The notes beneath the pieces were generated by a model. The model had not been told where the DNA came from, ran no database searches, and saw only the letters and a list, made by a program, of their open reading frames with translations. Shown here piece after piece: positions 30,427-46,269 of a DNA stretch of 64,000 bases. Position 1 is the stretch's first letter. Every line of letters begins with the position of its first letter. The translations under genes and the position numbers were made by a program. This DNA is from Chloroflexota bacterium (GTDB lineage Bacteria > Chloroflexota > Limnocylindria > QHBO01), in the NCBI GenBank assembly GCA_040902225.1, contig JBBDXT010000007.1, positions 124,001 through 188,000 of the forward strand, read 5' to 3'.

Positions 30427-30455
30427 TTGACCCTCCACGGGGGCGGTGCTATCGT
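30427..30455 (+). promoter_or_regulatory. Candidate promoter of the HxlR gene
   Basis: TTGACC (30427-30432), 17-base spacer, TATCGT (30450-30455). Transcription would begin about 30462, only a few bases before ATG 30466, giving a nearly leaderless mRNA. This helps choose the start. Confidence 0.4.
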
Positions 30456-30465
30456 CCGCCGCCTG

Positions 30466-30861
30466 ATGATGGACCCCGCCCCGCACGCTTCGCTGCACGC
30501 GTCGTCGCCCCGGGCGCCCCATCGCTCGCGCGCCGAGCGCCGCGCAGCTGCCCTGCGCAGCGAAGGCGCCGCGACCGCCGCCCTCAACGTCCTCGGCCAG
30601 AAATGGGTAATGCGCATCGTGCGGGTCCTCGGGGAGCGAACGCAGCGCTTCTGCGAGCTGCAGGACGCACTCGGCGGTGCCAACTCTGCGACCCTTTCAC
30701 AGCGCCTCAAGCTGCTCGAGGACGAGGGCCTGGTGGACCGCACCATGGTCTCCGAGGTGCCGCCGTGGGTCGAGTACTCCCTCACCACCAAGGGATCGGA
30801 CCTGCGTCGCGCGATCGTGGGGATCGACCGCTGGGCCGATCGCTGGGCAGCGAGCCAATGA
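30466..30861 (+). CDS. HxlR family transcriptional regulator
   Basis: 131 residues from ATG 30466. A basic, Ala-rich lead is followed by the HxlR winged helix: ALNVLGQKWVMRIVRVLGERTQRFCELQDALGGANSATLSQRLKLLEDEGLVDRT, then VEYSLTTKGSDLRRAI. One Cys sits in the motif RFCELQ, a possible redox switch in this family. Its stop overlaps the start of the GAF-domain gene by 4 bp (ATGA), so the two are co-translated; oxidative-stress sensing is a reasonable inference. Confidence 0.86.
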   Translation: MMDPAPHASLHASSPRAPHRSRAERRAAALRSEGAATAALNVLGQKWVMRIVRVLGERTQRFCELQDALGGANSATLSQRLKLLEDEGLVDRTMVSEVPPWVEYSLTTKGSDLRRAIVGIDRWADRWAASQ

Positions 30862-31355
30862 GCCATCCGGTCGCCGAGGAGCGACCCGCCGAGCACGGTG
30901 ACGCCCTCAACCTGATCCGCAGCGCGATCGCCGAGGCCCCGGGCACCGAGGCCGCCGCACAGCGGGCGGTGGAGCTGCTCCACGACCGCTTCGCGCATTA
31001 CGACTGGGTCGGCATCTATTGGCTCGACCCCAACGGCACCGAACTGGTGCTGGGGCCGTGGATCGGTCCTGAGGCGACCGAGCACACCCGCATCCCGATC
31101 GGTGTCGGGATCTGCGGAGCCGCCGCGGCATCGGGCCAGACGGTGATCGTCGACGACGTGGATGCCGATCCGCGCTATCTCGCCTGCTTCAGCACCACGC
31201 GAAGCGAGATCGTGGTCCCCATCTTTGCCGACGGGCAGGTGGTCGGTGAGATCGACATCGACGGCGATGACCTGGGCGCCTACGACCAGACCGATGCCAT
31301 CTTCCTGGAGGAGATCGCCGCGCTCCTGGCTCCCCTTCGACCGAGGGACGCCTAG
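30858..31355 (+). CDS. GAF-domain protein, free methionine-(R)-sulfoxide reductase-like
   Basis: 165 residues, a single GAF domain matching the fRMsr type: HYDWVGIYWLDPNGTELVLGPW, TRIPIGVGICGAAAASGQTVIVDDV, and RYLACFSTTRSEIVVPIF. Cys86 and Cys110 correspond to two of the three catalytic-site cysteines of the E. coli enzyme (84 and 118); the third (Cys94) is absent. It would reduce free methionine R-sulfoxide with thioredoxin. Translationally coupled to the HxlR regulator. Confidence 0.82.
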   Translation: MSHPVAEERPAEHGDALNLIRSAIAEAPGTEAAAQRAVELLHDRFAHYDWVGIYWLDPNGTELVLGPWIGPEATEHTRIPIGVGICGAAAASGQTVIVDDVDADPRYLACFSTTRSEIVVPIFADGQVVGEIDIDGDDLGAYDQTDAIFLEEIAALLAPLRPRDA

Positions 31356-31384
31356 CCGCGTAACCCGCGGCGTATCGGAGATGA

Positions 31385-31918
31385 ATGGCCACCCCTGACC
31401 AGAAGCCCGATCCTCGCACCCGCTTCGAGGCGATCTACGACGAGAACGTCACCCCCATCCACCGGTTCATCTACGCGCGGGTGGGCAACCGTCCGGATGC
31501 CGAGGACCTGACCGGGCAGGTGTTCATGCGCGCCGTCGAGCAGCTCGACGTCGACCGGCCGACGCCCCAGATCTCCGCCTGGCTGTATCGCGTCGCGCAG
31601 AACGCCGTGGCCGACTACTGGCGCGCGTTCTACCGCCTCCCGCAGATCGGTGTCGAGCAGGTTGCCGGCGCCTGGGAACCGGTCACGCCCCAGCCGAACC
31701 CGCATGCCGACGCCGATGCCGACCGCGCGGAGACGGCGGTGCGACGCCTCTTGAATCGGCTCCCCGACCAGTACGCGCGGGTCCTCGAGCTGCGCTTCCT
31801 GCATCGCCTGTCGGTGGCCGAGACCGCCGGCCGGATGGGGATCAGCCACGGCAACGCCAAGGTCCTGCAGTACCGCGCCCTGCGCAAGGCGGCGCTCCTG
31901 GTGGAGACCGATGGCTGA
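31385..31918 (+). CDS. ECF-type RNA polymerase sigma factor
   Basis: 177 residues. Region 2: RFEAIYDENVTPIHRFIYARVGNRPDAEDLTGQVFMRAVEQL with the -10 recognition helix. Region 4: LNRLPDQYARVLELRFLHRLSVAETAGRMGISHGNAKVLQYRALRKAA. ATG 31385 with GGAG at 31377-31380. It overlaps the following Rieske-domain gene by 8 bp, the arrangement normally used by an ECF sigma factor and its anti-sigma factor. Target promoters unknown. Confidence 0.92.
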   Translation: MATPDQKPDPRTRFEAIYDENVTPIHRFIYARVGNRPDAEDLTGQVFMRAVEQLDVDRPTPQISAWLYRVAQNAVADYWRAFYRLPQIGVEQVAGAWEPVTPQPNPHADADADRAETAVRRLLNRLPDQYARVLELRFLHRLSVAETAGRMGISHGNAKVLQYRALRKAALLVETDG

Positions 31919-32684
31919 GGAAAGCAACGAGGCGCCCGCGGCGCTCGATCGCTTCATCGACACCCTGCTCGAGGGTGGGCGCCCCGCACCTGATGGCGCC
32001 GTCGGCGACGAGGCGCCGATGGCCCGCCTGGCCGCCGAGCTGGCCGCCGCGGGCGACCCCACCCGTGGCGTGCCCGATCCCGCGTTCGTCGAGCAGCTGC
32101 GGCTGCGAATGCGCGACGCGGACGCCGGGATCACCTCGGTCCAGGGCTGGGCGCTGCCCGCTGGCGCTGCGCTTCATCGGATCCAGCTGACGCGGCGCGA
32201 CGTGCTGCGAGTTGGGCTCGGAGCGGCCGCCGGCCTGGCGGCTGGCGCTGGCGTCATCACAGTCCTGCGACCCTCCGGCCCCGCGCCGCTGACGGGCAAC
32301 GGCCGTCCGCTGGTGCGCGACGGGCAGTGGGTCGCTGTGGCCACACTGGCCGACCTGCCGGAGGGTGCCGCGGTCCGATTCAGCACCGCCGCCTTCGACG
32401 GGTATATCGTCAATGACGCAGGAACCATCCGCGCGCTCAGCTCGGTCTGCACCCACATGGGGTGCACCCTCGCCTATCGGCCGGAGTGGCAGGACCTGCG
32501 CTGCCCCTGCCACGGCGCCAGCTTCAACCTGGCCGGACAACTCGCCAACGGCGCCGACGGCTGGTCGTCCGGCCGCGGCTACCGGGGTGACGCGCAGGCC
32601 TACCCGATCGACCTGCCGCCGCTGGTGCGCCCGAAGGTCAAGGTCTCCGGCGAGACCGTCCTCGTCTGGACGGTAAAGGCCTAG
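31911..32684 (+). CDS. Membrane-anchored Rieske [2Fe-2S] protein paired with ECF sigma factor
   Basis: 257 residues. The cytoplasmic N-terminal domain (about 1-92) is acidic/helical with LDRFIDTLLEGGRP and PDPAFVEQLRLRMRDAD, the look of anti-sigma-like domains found after ECF genes. Next, RRDVLRVGLGAAAGLAAGAGVI (about 95-117) is a Tat-like signal anchor. The exterior Rieske domain has CTHMGC (Cys180, His182, Cys185) and CPCHG (Cys198, Cys200, His201). Ligands are Cys180, His182, Cys198 and His201; Cys185/Cys200 can form the disulfide. It overlaps the sigma gene by 8 bp. It could be a redox-sensing anti-sigma factor (inference) or an electron carrier. Confidence 0.85.
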   Translation: MAEESNEAPAALDRFIDTLLEGGRPAPDGAVGDEAPMARLAAELAAAGDPTRGVPDPAFVEQLRLRMRDADAGITSVQGWALPAGAALHRIQLTRRDVLRVGLGAAAGLAAGAGVITVLRPSGPAPLTGNGRPLVRDGQWVAVATLADLPEGAAVRFSTAAFDGYIVNDAGTIRALSSVCTHMGCTLAYRPEWQDLRCPCHGASFNLAGQLANGADGWSSGRGYRGDAQAYPIDLPPLVRPKVKVSGETVLVWTVKA

Positions 32685-32887
32685 CCGGTCACCAGCTGGA
32701 GCAGGTAGCCGATGATGTACGGCACCGCCAGCGCCACCACCACCGTGGTCAGCGCCAGCCCCACGTAGAGCAGGTACCGGAGGTTCGGCGGGGCAGGGCG
32801 CGCAGGTGGGGGCGTCATGCGATGCGCCAGGTGCGTCGGCCGCCGCGGCCGCTGGTGCTCGTATGCGTGCGGATGGGTCTCGCTCAT
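32681..32887 (-). CDS. Small single-helix membrane protein
   Basis: 68 residues. The N-terminal 35 residues are His/Pro/Arg-rich (HPHAYEHQRPRRPTHLAHR) and the C-terminal half is one long hydrophobic helix (LRYLLYVGLALTTVVVALAVPYIIGYLLQLV). It converges with the Rieske gene, the stops overlapping by 4 bp, and lies 8 bp downstream of the transketolase-like stop region on the other side. ATG 32887 has no clear ribosome site. No family recognised. Confidence 0.5.
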   Translation of the reverse strand: MSETHPHAYEHQRPRRPTHLAHRMTPPPARPAPPNLRYLLYVGLALTTVVVALAVPYIIGYLLQLVTG

Positions 32888-41422: not shown

Positions 41423-42265
41423 TCACTGCTTCTGGCTCAGCAGGAAGGTGATCAGCGCCTGCATGGCCGATGCGCTGATTCTCCCCTCCGGATGCACCGG
41501 CATGCCGGTGGCGATGCCGTCGTTGTAGTTCACCGCGGAGTCACGAATCCAGCGCTCCAGGAAGTTCGTGGGATCGGCGAGATAGTCCGCCTCCAGCTGG
41601 TCGAGGTGGCTGATCGGCGTTGGCAGGTCGGTGACCGGCTCGTTGCCGATGTTGAGCAGGCTCGGCCCGACCCCGCCCGACAGGTCCGCAGCGTGGCAGC
41701 TTCCGCAGCCGGCGTCGACGTAGACCTTCTGGCCCGCTTCGACCGTGTTCGGGATCTCTTCGTCCGGCTGAGACCCGGCCTCCAGCGCCCACGTCTCGAC
41801 CAGCGCGGTGAGCGCGTCGATCTGGTTGACGGTCAGCGCCCCGCCGACCTCCGTGCTCCAGGCAGGCATCGGCGAGTTGACGTCACCGGACACGACCACC
41901 CCGCCGAAGCGGATCACCAGGTTGACGTAGTCGGGCGGGTCGCCGGGCTTGCGAATCTCGGTGAATGATCCGCCGGCCTGGGCCTTGAGCTTCTCGTAGA
42001 TGCTCTTCGAATGGAGGTTGGGGGCAAGCCGCCCGGTCGTTCCGACCTCACCGCCCGTCCCGTCCGGCCCGTGGCAGGCGGCGCAGTCGGCCGTATGGTC
42101 GTTCTCCGGCGTGACGGGCCCGAACATCTCCTCCCCGTACGCGACGAGCTCCTCGTTCTGGGTCTGGTACTCGTCTTCGCGACGGGCGGTATCGGTCAGC
42201 CAGTAGAAGGCGGTGAACAGCGACAGGGCGCTGATCAGGACGATCCCCAGGGTCTTGATGCGCAT
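41423..42265 (-). CDS. Diheme cytochrome c subunit of the bc-type complex
   Basis: 280 residues. An uncleaved or signal-type N-terminal helix (TLGIVLISALSLFTAFYWL) is followed by two class I cytochrome c domains. Heme sites are CAACH (Cys61, Cys64, His65) and CGSCH (Cys187, Cys190, His191). Probable Met ligands are in NSPMPAW and ATGMPVHP. Three bases after the Rieske gene. It replaces cytochrome c1/f as the electron acceptor from Rieske. Its maturation would need the Ccm proteins encoded at 20.5-27.1 kb. Confidence 0.93.
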   Translation of the reverse strand: MRIKTLGIVLISALSLFTAFYWLTDTARREDEYQTQNEELVAYGEEMFGPVTPENDHTADCAACHGPDGTGGEVGTTGRLAPNLHSKSIYEKLKAQAGGSFTEIRKPGDPPDYVNLVIRFGGVVVSGDVNSPMPAWSTEVGGALTVNQIDALTALVETWALEAGSQPDEEIPNTVEAGQKVYVDAGCGSCHAADLSGGVGPSLLNIGNEPVTDLPTPISHLDQLEADYLADPTNFLERWIRDSAVNYNDGIATGMPVHPEGRISASAMQALITFLLSQKQ

Positions 42266-42268
42266 CGA

Positions 42269-42883
42269 TCAGGCCGCGCAGTGCGGGATATTGTCGGTGT
42301 TGCGGTTGTCGAAGGTAGCGGTGCCGATCGGCGGTCCGGCCACGATCGCGCTGGTGTCGACCTCGTAGACGCCCGCGGTCAAGGTCACTTCGAAGCGATC
42401 CATCCCGCGCGGCGCCGGTCCCGCGCGCTTCTCGCCAATGATGTTGTACTTGCTGCCGTGGCACAGGCACTCGAACCAGAGGCTCTGATCGCACAGCGGC
42501 GGAATGTTGCAGCCCAGGTGCGGGCACTTCCGGTACAGGGCCAGCACATTGTCTCCGGGGTCCGCGACCGTCTCGTTGGTGCCGCTGACCATGGACTCCG
42601 ACGCCGGCACGTTGATGAAGAAGATGCGAGCCTTGCTGAAGCCGAACGGCTGTCCGCTGGCCCAGGTCGGCTGCGTGCCGGCGATGTCGGCCGCGGAGCC
42701 GATCGTGAACTTGCCGCCCAGCCCGCTGCGCACGTTCGGCCACAGGAAGTTGACGCTGCCGGCCAGGAACTCGATCGACAGGATGCCGGTTCCCACCCAG
42801 AGGATGCGGCGCATGAAGCTGCGCCGGCTCATCTCCCCGACCGGAGCCGCCGGGACCTCGCCGTAGGTAGGAAGGTGGCTCAT
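42269..42883 (-). CDS. Rieske iron-sulfur subunit of the bc-type complex
   Basis: 204 residues. N-terminal Tat-like anchor MSRRSFMRRILWVGTGILSIEFLAGSV, then a Rieske domain with CPHLGC (Cys120, His122, Cys125) and CLCHGS (Cys139, Cys141, His142). Ligands are Cys120, His122, Cys139 and His142; Cys125/Cys141 give the disulfide. ATG 42883 overlaps the cytochrome b C-terminal-half gene by 4 bp. Transfers electrons from quinol at cytochrome b to the diheme cytochrome c. Confidence 0.93.
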   Translation of the reverse strand: MSHLPTYGEVPAAPVGEMSRRSFMRRILWVGTGILSIEFLAGSVNFLWPNVRSGLGGKFTIGSAADIAGTQPTWASGQPFGFSKARIFFINVPASESMVSGTNETVADPGDNVLALYRKCPHLGCNIPPLCDQSLWFECLCHGSKYNIIGEKRAGPAPRGMDRFEVTLTAGVYEVDTSAIVAGPPIGTATFDNRNTDNIPHCAA

Positions 42884-43494
42884 AGGGTGAAGTAGAGCCC
42901 ATCCCACGGCCAGACCCAGTTCCAGCCGGGGCCGCGGAAGAAGGAGCCGATGAGCGTGATCAGCAGGCCGCCGACCATGAGCGACAGGAAGAAGACCCAG
43001 GCCGTCTTGCGGTCGCGAGCTGCTTTGTAGGGCGAGCGGTCGATGTACGGAATGACGGCCAGCCCGACCAGGTACAGGGTCGGCAGCAGGACGCCGCCGA
43101 CGGTGGCATTGAAGTACGAGAGCAGCTCCTGCAGGCCGAGGAAGTACCACGGGGCCTTGGCGACGTGCGGGGTGACGCCGGCGTTCGCCATCTCCTCCAG
43201 CGGCGCGTGGATGAAGACCGAGGCCACGACGAGCAGAACGCTGATCAGCAGCGCCATCAGGAACTCAGCGCGCAGCAGGTGCGGCCAGGTCAGGACGGTC
43301 TCATCGGGCCTCTTGTCGACGCGAACCATCGACTCCTGCTTGACGTAGGCCAGCAGGCGGAAGCGCTCGGTACCCGGCACGCCGGGCGGGCCGGGGAGCT
43401 TGGGCCCACGGTCGCGCTCGACCGCCGGGAGGCGCGGCGCCTGGGTGGGGGCGGTCTTGTCAGCGGTGGCGTTCGGCCGCTTCTCGATCGTCAT
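42880..43494 (-). CDS. Cytochrome b C-terminal half (subunit IV-like)
   Basis: 204 residues. An N-terminal extension of about 70 polar residues (Pro/Arg-rich), then three helices: FLMALLISVLLVVASVFIHAPL, AKAPWYFLGLQELLSYFNATVGGVLLPTLYLVGLAVIPYID, and AWVFFLSLMVGGLLITLIGSFF. The quinol-site PEWY motif of cytochrome b reads APWY here, with Glu replaced. Encoded 16 bp after the N-terminal half, so cytochrome b is split as in b6f complexes. Confidence 0.88.
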   Translation of the reverse strand: MTIEKRPNATADKTAPTQAPRLPAVERDRGPKLPGPPGVPGTERFRLLAYVKQESMVRVDKRPDETVLTWPHLLRAEFLMALLISVLLVVASVFIHAPLEEMANAGVTPHVAKAPWYFLGLQELLSYFNATVGGVLLPTLYLVGLAVIPYIDRSPYKAARDRKTAWVFFLSLMVGGLLITLIGSFFRGPGWNWVWPWDGLYFTL

Positions 43495-43510
43495 CGGTTC
43501 ACTGCGCCTT

Positions 43511-44245
43511 TCAGACGGGGCCCGAGACGCCGCCGTCCTTCCGGATCCTCCAGAAGTGGACGACCAGGAGGATGGCGACGATCAGCGGGAAGGCGATGAC
43601 GTGCATGACGTAGAACCGGATCAGCGTCCCCTGACCGACCTCCACGCCTCCGAGCAGGATGAAGCTCGACTCCTGGCTGAGCAGTGGCGCGTAGGTCGCC
43701 ATCTGGGTGCCGACCGTGATCGCCCAGAACGCGATCTGGTCCCAGGGCAGGAGGTAGCCGGTGAAACTGAGCCACAGGGTGCAGAAGAGGAGGACGACGC
43801 CGATCACCCAGTTGAACTCGCGTGGTGGCTTGTAGGCACCGTGGTAGAAGACCCGGATCATGTGCAGGAAGACGGTCAGCACCATGAGGTGTGCGCCCCA
43901 GCGATGCATGTTGCGCACGAACGTGCCGAAGGCGACCGAGTTCTCGATCGAGAGGATGTCCTGGTAGGCGCGGGTCACCGACGGCACGTAGAAGAACATC
44001 AGGTACACGCCCGTCACGGTCAGCACCAAGAAGAGGAAGAAGCTGACCCCGCCGAGGCAGAAGGTGTAGGTGTAGCGCACCGCATGCTTCTTGACCCGAA
44101 CCGGGTGGAGGTGCAGGAAGACGTTGTTCATGACCGCCAGGGCGCGAGTGCGGCTGGTGGTGGGATACGGCTGGCGGAAGAGGCTGCGCCACACCGACGA
44201 CTCCCTGACGACCCGCATGAGGTCGCCGGGGCCGGGGAAGGTCAT
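43511..44245 (-). CDS. Cytochrome b N-terminal half (b6-like)
   Basis: 244 residues, four helices. Heme b ligands: His114 and His128 in [24 protein letters not shown], and His215 and His230 in [23 protein letters not shown]. The second pair is spaced 15 apart, as in b6. [16 protein letters not shown] is the conserved Qo-side segment. The N-terminus has an amphipathic extension of about 55 residues. ATG overlaps the FAD/Fe-S gene stop by 4 bp. Core of a menaquinol or plastoquinol-like:cytochrome c oxidoreductase. Confidence 0.93.
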
Positions 44246-46269
44246 CGCTGGACCGCCATGCCGGCCTCCTGGCCGATCTGACCCAGCACGTTGTCCTTGT
44301 AGCTCTCCAAGAGCACCTTCCCGTCAGGCGTGAGCCGCTCGAGCTCGAGTCGGTCCATCGTGATGCAGTTGGTCGGACACCGCTCGACGCAGAGGTTGCA
44401 ACGGATGCAGCGCTCCTCGTCGATGATCATGGCAATCCCGCGCGGCCACGACTGGAAGAGGTCGATCTCCGGGTCGTCGCCGCCGACCTGCGCCTTGTCG
44501 ATCATGTAGATCACGCCCTCGGGGCAGACATCGGCGCAGAGCCCGCACAGGATACAGCGGGGCCCATCGATGTTGATGTTGTGGTTGCACTGCAGGCAGC
44601 GCTGCCCCTCGGCGATGGCGCTCCGCGTGTCATAGCCGACCTCCACCAGGCTGGTGAAGTCGCGTCGCAGCTCCGGCGGCGCCATCGGGATGTGCTGGCG
44701 CTGGATCGCCTCGTACTTGTCCGGCATGTCGTGCTCGAGCACCTGGGTCACCACCGCGCGGTTGATCACCGGCAGCTCGACCAGCTCCTCGCCGCGTACG
44801 CCGAGGAGCCAGCGGTCGACCGCTCGCGCCGTGCGGCGGCCACGCCCCGCCGCCTCGATGATGGTGGCGGGGCCGGTCACGAAGTCGCCGCAGGCGAAGA
44901 TCCCCTCGACATTGGTCTGGAAGGTGTCCGGCTCGGCCACCACGTTGCCGCGGCTGAGCTCGAACTGGAGGGCGTTGTATTTCTTGCCATCGGGGCCCAC
45001 CGGCGTGGTCCCGTTCAGCGGCGGAGTCCGCCACGACGAGACCGATCCGCCCGGCACGAACTCGCGCGTGTCGGTCACTCCCAGGTGCCGGTTCAGCTTG
45101 GCGCCGTACTCGCCCAGCACGTTGTTGTCGGACGCCTGGCTGGTGCACGGGATGACCATGTCGCAGGGGATCGTGAACTCGCTGCCGGGGATCGGCTCCG
45201 GGCTGCGCCGGCCGCTGGCATCCGGTGGGCCGAGGCGCGTCCGCTGGAAGGTGATCCCGGCCACCTTGCCGTCCTTCTCGACGATCTCGACCGGCGACGA
45301 GAAGAACTCAAAGCGGACCCCTTCGAAGCGGGTCTCGTGCTGCTCCTCCTCGTCGACCACCATCTCCTCCGGGCCGCGGCGGTAGACGATGGTGCTGGTC
45401 TTGGCGCCGATTCGCAGCGCGGTGCGCGAGGAGTCCATGGCGGTATAGCCGCCACCCACCACCACGACGTGCTCGCCGACCCACTGCTCCTCGCCCAGGT
45501 TGGCGCGCTTCAGGAAGTCGACGCCGTAGATCACGCCGTCGATCTCCTCGCCGGGGACGTTCATGGCGACGGGGTACATGCACCCGGCCGACACCACCAC
45601 CGCATCGTGCCGCTCCCGCAGCTGGTCGAGGGTGATGTCGCGGCCGACCTCGACGTTGTAGTGGAAGTCCACGCCGTGCTTGGCGACCCAGCTGACGTCC
45701 AGCTCGATCACGTCCCTTGGAAGCCGGAACGCCGGCACGCCGATGAGGCAGGTTCCGCCACCCGACGGCAGCGCCTCGTAGATGTCGACCTTGTGGCCGT
45801 AGCTGGCCAGCTCCTTGGCAACGGTCAGCCCGGCCGGGCCGGCGCCGATGACGCCCACGGTCTTGCCGGTCGGGGAGGCGGTCACGATGTTGTCCGGCAT
45901 GTTGTTGCTGTAGTGCCAGTCGACCAGGAAGCGCTTCATGGCGCGGATCGAGAGCGGCTTGTCGATGTCAGCCCGTCGACAGGCCTTCTCGCAGGGCGCG
46001 CTGCACACGTAGCCGCAGATGGCGGCGACCGGGTTCGGGTCGCGCGCCAGGATGTAGCCCTCCTCGAAGCGCCCCTCGGCGGCAAGCATCAGGTAGCCAC
46101 GGCAATTCGTGTTGACCGGGCAACCTTCCTGGCATTCGATGTTGCACTGAAGCCAGTCGACGCCGACTTCGGCGGTCTGGAACCTCAGTGGAATGGCGTT
46201 GGCGGAGATCACTGGCACCGTCGTAGAGCGGGTTCCACCACGAGTTGCCGAGGCGAGTGAGCGGCGCAC
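44242..46269 (-). CDS. GltD-like FAD/NAD(P) oxidoreductase with Fe-S clusters, first gene of the bc operon
   Basis: 675 residues. An N-terminal cysteine-rich [4Fe-4S] domain (Cys42, 46, 50, 56; Cys85, 89, 93, 97) like the glutamate synthase small subunit. Two nucleotide-binding folds follow: FAD motif [15 protein letters not shown] at about 140, NAD(P) motif [18 protein letters not shown]. Then come [20 protein letters not shown] and a C-terminal two-cluster ferredoxin domain ([24 protein letters not shown]). No transmembrane helix. GTG 46269 is the longest start; GTG near 46218 is possible. It overlaps cytochrome b by 4 bp, so it probably feeds electrons from NAD(P)H, or a ferredoxin, into the complex. 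Confidence 0.9.

Follow-up and report, generated by a model that had tools for sequence, protein, structure and literature searches.

Why does the gene of a membrane-anchored Rieske protein overlap that of an ECF sigma factor in a Chloroflexota bacterium? An initial annotation of this DNA had proposed that the Rieske protein is a redox-sensing anti-sigma factor. The proposal was followed up computationally in the window, which is the whole stretch of 64,000 nucleotides that was analysed, in its source genome (Chloroflexota, 2.28 Mb, 99% complete) and in other genomes. Its anti-sigma part survived the tests that were run, binding of the sigma factor being suggested by context, and redox sensing by the cluster appears plausible. 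We regard it as probable (about 70%) that the two proteins form a switch of a sigma factor and a membrane anti-sigma factor with an exported Rieske sensor, which exerts feedback on copper and redox proteins.

The sigma factor gene and its Rieske partner

The sigma factor gene (31385..31918, + strand) encodes a protein of 177 aa with matches to regions 2 and 4 only (Pfam Sigma70_r2, residues 18-81, E 3.8e-11; Sigma70_r4_2, residues 118-168, E 1.2e-11). Its TIGR02937 score exceeds the cut-off, placing it in the ECF class. The top family match is the BldN family (TIGR02952) with 111.8 bits, below the curated cut-off of 206.45, so that the protein is not assigned to this family; BldN is nevertheless the nearest solved relative (PDB 6dxo_A, E 2.6e-20). 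The ORF coordinates confirm the overlap of 8 bp between the sigma stop and the start of the Rieske gene (ATGGCTGA, 31911..31918, + strand) that had been read from the sequence.

Directly upstream of the sigma gene lies a gene for a GAF-domain protein (30858..31355, + strand; PF01590, E 8.2e-17), which is kept in all 12 of 12 family loci and is preceded by a gene for an HxlR-family regulator (30427..30861, + strand; PF01638, E 8.4e-24), kept in 11 of the 12. The HxlR regulator gene is likely to be in one operon with the sigma-Rieske pair. By its motifs the GAF-domain protein may resemble free methionine-R-sulfoxide reductase, and the two upstream genes would then fit an oxidant-related setting in the family of the window. 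On the other side a gene for a 68-aa membrane protein without a Pfam family (32681-32887, − strand) converges on the Rieske gene, the two ends overlapping by 4 bp.

The Rieske gene (31911..32684, + strand) encodes 257 aa with a PF00355 match (E 2.2e-13), and both the cluster ligands and the fold identify the product as a Rieske protein. An AlphaFold2 model places helices at residues 8-20, 32-47 and 57-78, and a further one at 95-110. The first three make up an N-terminal domain (residues 9-78; 31935..32144, + strand), delimited by conservation and the model, which is predicted to be cytoplasmic and is proposed to bind the sigma factor. The only hydrophobic segment comprises residues 101-119 (19 aa, mean hydropathy 1.93) and is directly preceded by Arg95-Arg96. 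This twin-arginine (Tat) arrangement, which the initial annotation had not mentioned, forms together with the anchor a stretch starting at Thr94 (residues 94-119; 32190..32267, + strand). The genome encodes tatC (TatC, E 5e-61), and the protein thus has the features expected of a Tat substrate. It would therefore be natural to read the arrangement as export of the folded domain with its cluster, the N-domain staying inside.

The predicted extracytoplasmic Rieske [2Fe-2S] domain (residues 138-257; 32322..32681, + strand) was modelled with confidence (pLDDT 94-98 over most of 140-210), and the best full-length Foldseek matches are Rieske proteins without exception. It carries the ligands C180, H182, C198 and H201 and the disulfide pair C185-C200. 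The single membrane segment and the complete Rieske domain described earlier are borne out. Across 72 sigma-linked proteins R95 (100%), R96 (94%), C180 and C185 (100% each), C198, C200 and H201 (99% each) and H182 (94%) are conserved. The disulfide had been called redox-active, for which we found no support: with 99-100% conservation of its cysteines it matches the structural disulfide that bc-type Rieske domains normally have. In four of the 72 homologues an Asp replaces the ligand His182 (CTDxGC), which suggests that cluster binding is altered or lost in these proteins.

Conservation of the pair and of the N-terminal domain

In the family of the window the sigma orthologue and the Rieske protein co-occur in 15 of 22 genomes and are adjacent every time, while the remaining seven genomes, some of them incomplete assemblies, contain neither gene. 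The sigma orthologues score at least 293 bits, the next best sigma factors of the class 96 bits. A whole-protein profile of the Rieske partner matched in 88 of 400 genomes of the phylum. Sixty-four loci from 14 family-level groups elsewhere in Chloroflexota were opened, and in 60 of them an ECF sigma gene lies directly upstream on the same strand; start codons were picked nearest to the sigma stop in this survey, by which the exact gene gaps are biased. At two of the other four loci the sigma gene is farther away or broken, and two are weak Rieske-only matches without a sigma gene. In a tree of 127 sigma factors, the 72 Rieske-linked ones lie on one side of a branch with a support of 100/100, the 55 non-Rieske sigma factors being drawn from a single class. 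The sigma-Rieske arrangement thus recurs beyond chance and is not a local accident.

The arrangement also extends to an actinobacterial plasmid. In Mycobacteroides abscessus subsp. bolletii (NC_021278.1, 107501-109302) genes for an ECF sigma factor, a Rieske protein and a cupredoxin stand in a row, the first two overlapping by 4 bp. The Rieske protein shares the N-domain with the Chloroflexota proteins (probability 97.9), and the DNA element discussed below occurs as GTAACCCGCCGCCGTA in the interval that separates the Rieske gene from the cupredoxin gene. This locus is an actinobacterial copy of the sigma-Rieske system. With this copy, the 15 of 15 family genomes that hold the genes and the 60 of 64 loci, the pair shows the conserved, translationally coupled pairing expected of a membrane anti-sigma factor. 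A plasmid of Rubrobacter marinus (NZ_CP045122.1) encodes a short Rieske protein without a sigma factor, next to DoxX, metal-transporter and multicopper-oxidase genes, which hints at a tie between stand-alone Rieske domains and metals.

The N-domain is retained in homologues that keep the pairing, with A41, F59, P55 and L63 conserved at 86-97% in the 72 proteins and L19 conserved as well. It also recurs after other ECF sigma factors without a Rieske domain. A second ECF sigma factor of the family is followed, at eight loci, by a small protein that consists of the N-domain and a membrane segment and has no exported domain; profile-profile comparison (hhalign) of this N-domain with that of the Rieske partner gave a probability of 96.5 (E 7e-10). 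Furthermore, the N-terminal segments partly resemble the start of FecR-type proteins that follow ECF sigma factors elsewhere in the class. Matches to the N-domain in the class outside the family are mostly unrelated proteins and are meaningful only beside an ECF gene (L076/L087, and L086 of genome G098). Since the N-domain stays with ECF sigma factors while the exported domain changes, it looks like an anti-sigma domain, and it behaves as an exchangeable anti-sigma module would.

The layout agrees with a membrane anti-sigma factor, as the model and the hydropathy profile place a putative sigma-binding N-domain, one membrane segment and an exported domain in succession. Pfam, NCBIfam and PDB searches returned no named anti-sigma domain in the N-terminus (Pfam in 57 members), Foldseek returned no match for the N-domain alone, and comparison with RsbN gave no match in sequence or fold, three helices being predicted. 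Residues 1-100 contain no cysteine and hence no HxxxCxxC motif of the zinc anti-sigma (ZAS, class I) proteins. As a consequence the protein is not formally placed in any named anti-sigma family. Because no library model matches and the model of the lone N-domain is of modest confidence (pLDDT 74, pTM 0.46, AlphaFold2), the anti-sigma reading draws on context. A mirror-tree style correlation of distances with the sigma factor was not discriminating (partial r 0.28 for the N-domain and 0.29 for the Rieske domain).

The conserved element upstream of the sigma gene and its predicted targets

A promoter-like element recognized by conservation, GTAACC-CGCGG-CGTA (31360..31374, + strand), precedes the sigma gene and ends with its CGTA box 10 bp before the ATG. 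Its general form is GTAACC-N5/6-CGTA. Counted across loci as GTAAC-N6/7-[C/T/G]GTA, it was present upstream of the sigma gene in 54 of 74 sigma-Rieske loci, some loci thus being without it, compared with a mean of 0.14 and a maximum of 1 in shuffles; upstream of other ECF sigma factors of the same class it was found in 0 of 55 cases.

Three GTAACN6,7CGTA sites are present in the genome of the window. They precede the sigma gene, a PF03640 lipoprotein gene (Pfam E 4e-26) and a gene for a 98-aa secreted protein. Other sites in the family lie in front of genes for cupredoxins (two loci), CHRD proteins (two loci), a PF03640 protein (one locus) and small secreted proteins (two loci). In distant families the element stands before cupredoxin-like genes (five loci, twice at L202) and PF03640-like genes (four loci), both assignments being confirmed by Pfam for L202 only, as well as before genes for Tat-signal proteins of one family (four loci). 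A small secreted family ending in '...QYDVACFQ/YQ...' was seen behind the element at five loci in two distant families, including the two loci with small secreted proteins mentioned above; among the genomes concerned are two incomplete assemblies (G013, G015) that yielded no sigma orthologue.

Across several families 82 distinct sites were collected, 20 of them preceding a sigma gene. Signal-peptide-like proteins are encoded downstream of 37 of the 62 non-sigma sites versus 6.6% of random positions; about a quarter of the set look unrelated, and some loci were picked for their neighbourhoods. Independently of the element, genes of the PF03640, cupredoxin and YtkA types recur in the neighbourhood of the sigma-Rieske pair. 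The predicted regulon, made up of cupredoxins, PF03640 and CHRD proteins and further exported proteins, points to copper and redox carriers outside the membrane. Quinone or oxygen status, which had been suggested as the signal, found no specific support in these data.

Taken together, we infer a switch in which the N-domain binds and inhibits the sigma factor. As gene pairing and domain swapping suggest, it would hold the ECF sigma factor against the cytoplasmic face of the membrane, while the Tat pathway would export the folded Rieske domain and one helix would anchor it, consistent with the RR motif, the membrane segment and a tatC gene in the genome. The [2Fe-2S] cluster may change its state, either as extracytoplasmic electron carriers shift its redox poise or through damage by copper or oxidants. 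Such a change would pass through the single helix and release the sigma factor, and the freed sigma factor would then transcribe the operon that encodes it, along with exported-protein genes, from GTAACC-N5/6-CGTA promoters. Cupredoxins, PF03640 lipoproteins and CHRD proteins would be the main exported targets. This would close a feedback loop, the Rieske sensor reading the compartment whose copper and redox proteins the sigma factor supplies. As the signal we favour the redox state, or the integrity, of the extracytoplasmic compartment.

The strongest competing signal is copper damage to the cluster. With the same anti-sigma architecture, copper or another metal would destroy or displace the cluster, the domain would unfold and the released sigma factor would induce copper-binding proteins. 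Genes for cupredoxins, YtkA-like and DUF326 proteins do occur among targets and neighbours, and in the Mycobacteroides copy the pair is followed by the cupredoxin gene with the element in front. However, PF03640, CHRD and other exported proteins of the set are not known as copper-stress proteins, the targets inspected revealed no copper exporter, and the cupredoxins could equally be electron carriers. We therefore consider copper as the signal rather unlikely, even if it comes closest among the alternatives.

A second alternative concerns the element itself, whose boxes (GTAAC to CGTA) are 6-7 nt apart. The usual spacer of ECF promoters is about 16, and boxes that are like ECF -35 and -10 elements would here be too close by about one helical turn, a distance so far from the usual one that the element may instead serve another conserved regulator as its operator, with the sigma factor using a different promoter. 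One control ECF group of the class indeed shows CTAAC-N17-CGTT. Against the operator stand the boxes themselves, which we take to resemble the known ECF -35 (TGTAAC/CGTAAC) and -10 (CGTA) elements, the position of CGTA, which in most cases in the family is 9-13 bp ahead of the sigma start, and the sigma and Rieske proteins being the only regulators common to all loci. An operator is hence somewhat less likely still than the copper signal, and recognition of the element by the sigma factor stays our preferred reading.

The electron-transfer question and known systems

The Rieske protein might instead be an electron-transfer partner, e.g. a cupredoxin donor, that is merely co-expressed with the sigma factor, the N-domain serving as an anchor or assembly domain. 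All cluster ligands are retained, cupredoxin genes are near in several loci, and transfer from a Rieske protein to a cupredoxin would be chemically ordinary. The window has its own bc-type operon (41423-46269, − strand), recognized by eye from motifs and comprising genes for a c-type cytochrome (41423-42265, − strand), a bc-type Rieske protein with CHGSKY and GPAP (42269-43150, − strand) and cytochrome b (43511-44245, − strand). A gene for a large FAD/iron-sulfur protein also lies within this operon. A second bc-type Rieske protein of the genome, encoded on another contig, has CHGSTY. The sigma-linked protein of the window has CHGASF at the site of CHGSxY; in the sigma-linked group the bc1-type Ser and Tyr were each found in one of 71 sequences and the GPAP motif in two of 72. 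Inspection by eye of the listed neighbours of the pair showed no genes for cytochrome b or c.

The protein therefore lacks the neighbouring cytochrome b, the Ser/Tyr pair and the GPAP motif of a bc1/b6f Rieske subunit, and it lies outside the bc-type operon. These differences, together with the N-domain being common to ECF-linked proteins without a Rieske domain and the anti-sigma gene position in 60 of 64 loci, led us to set the electron-transfer reading aside as unlikely, clearly more so than an operator function of the element. That the N-domain binds the sigma factor as a recruiting co-activator, so that the sigma factor would be active only when membrane-bound, is very improbable, as established ECF partners with such a layout are inhibitors and the sigma overlap with the element upstream of the whole operon fits an autoregulated sigma/anti-sigma pair, even though the sequence data do not separate the two roles.

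Removal of the Ser and Tyr equivalents in yeast lowers the potential of the Rieske cluster by about 130 and 65 mV, respectively (PMC12954380). As the pair raises the cluster potential and is lost in the sigma-linked group, a lowered potential is predicted for these proteins. It is a tentative and rather doubtful extension that a phylum-wide family of Rieske anti-sigma factors uses such a lower-potential cluster to read the redox poise of copper carriers, and that its sigma factors read promoter boxes 6-7 nt apart, a distance that none of the other ECF factors examined showed.

Known inputs of anti-sigma factors are envelope damage, ligands and the intracellular thiol or zinc redox state. If the proposed switch is true, an exported Rieske cluster would add a new chemistry of sensing to transmembrane signalling, and Chloroflexota genes that now carry the annotation 'Rieske protein' or that of a bc1/b6f subunit would be reassigned. 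The conserved element gives a predictable regulon in uncultured bacteria, and its odd box spacing bears on how ECF holoenzymes read promoters. Searches of the open-access literature for a Rieske protein combined with an anti-sigma factor (in Chloroflexi, in Ktedonobacter and in general) returned none, and the 2021 ECF reclassification may hold a prior mention; the conserved DNA element with exported-protein targets is new here.

With the bc1/b6f Rieske subunits and with AioB of arsenite oxidase, the sigma-linked protein shares the fold, the CxH...CxxH ligands, the disulfide and a Tat-type N-terminus. It differs from them by its extra N-domain, its place outside a cytochrome or oxidase operon and the near-complete loss of Ser, Tyr and GPAP in its group. 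The FecR- and DUF5667-like proteins of Chloroflexota (named by eye) likewise follow an ECF gene and have a cytoplasmic N-terminal part, one membrane segment and an exported domain, but this domain is another one and their sigma factors belong to other clades. RsbN, the membrane anti-sigma factor of the ECF sigma factor BldN, represents the ASDIII class (PDB 6dxo; PMC7406223). The two systems are alike in the sigma factor, for which BldN is the nearest solved one, and in a membrane partner with a three-helix cytoplasmic domain; they are unlike in that the N-domain described here has no detectable sequence similarity to RsbN, the sensor would be a Rieske [2Fe-2S] domain, and the boxes of the putative promoter are separated by 6-7 nt where about 16 is usual. 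The element has the -35-like box CGTAAC that is presumably also that of BldN promoters. Redox-linked control by an anti-sigma factor is known from RsrA and other ZAS proteins and from RskA-SigK, which use zinc or cysteines inside the cell. In contrast, the N-domain of the Rieske partner is free of cysteine, and the redox centre would be an iron-sulfur cluster exported to the other side of the membrane.
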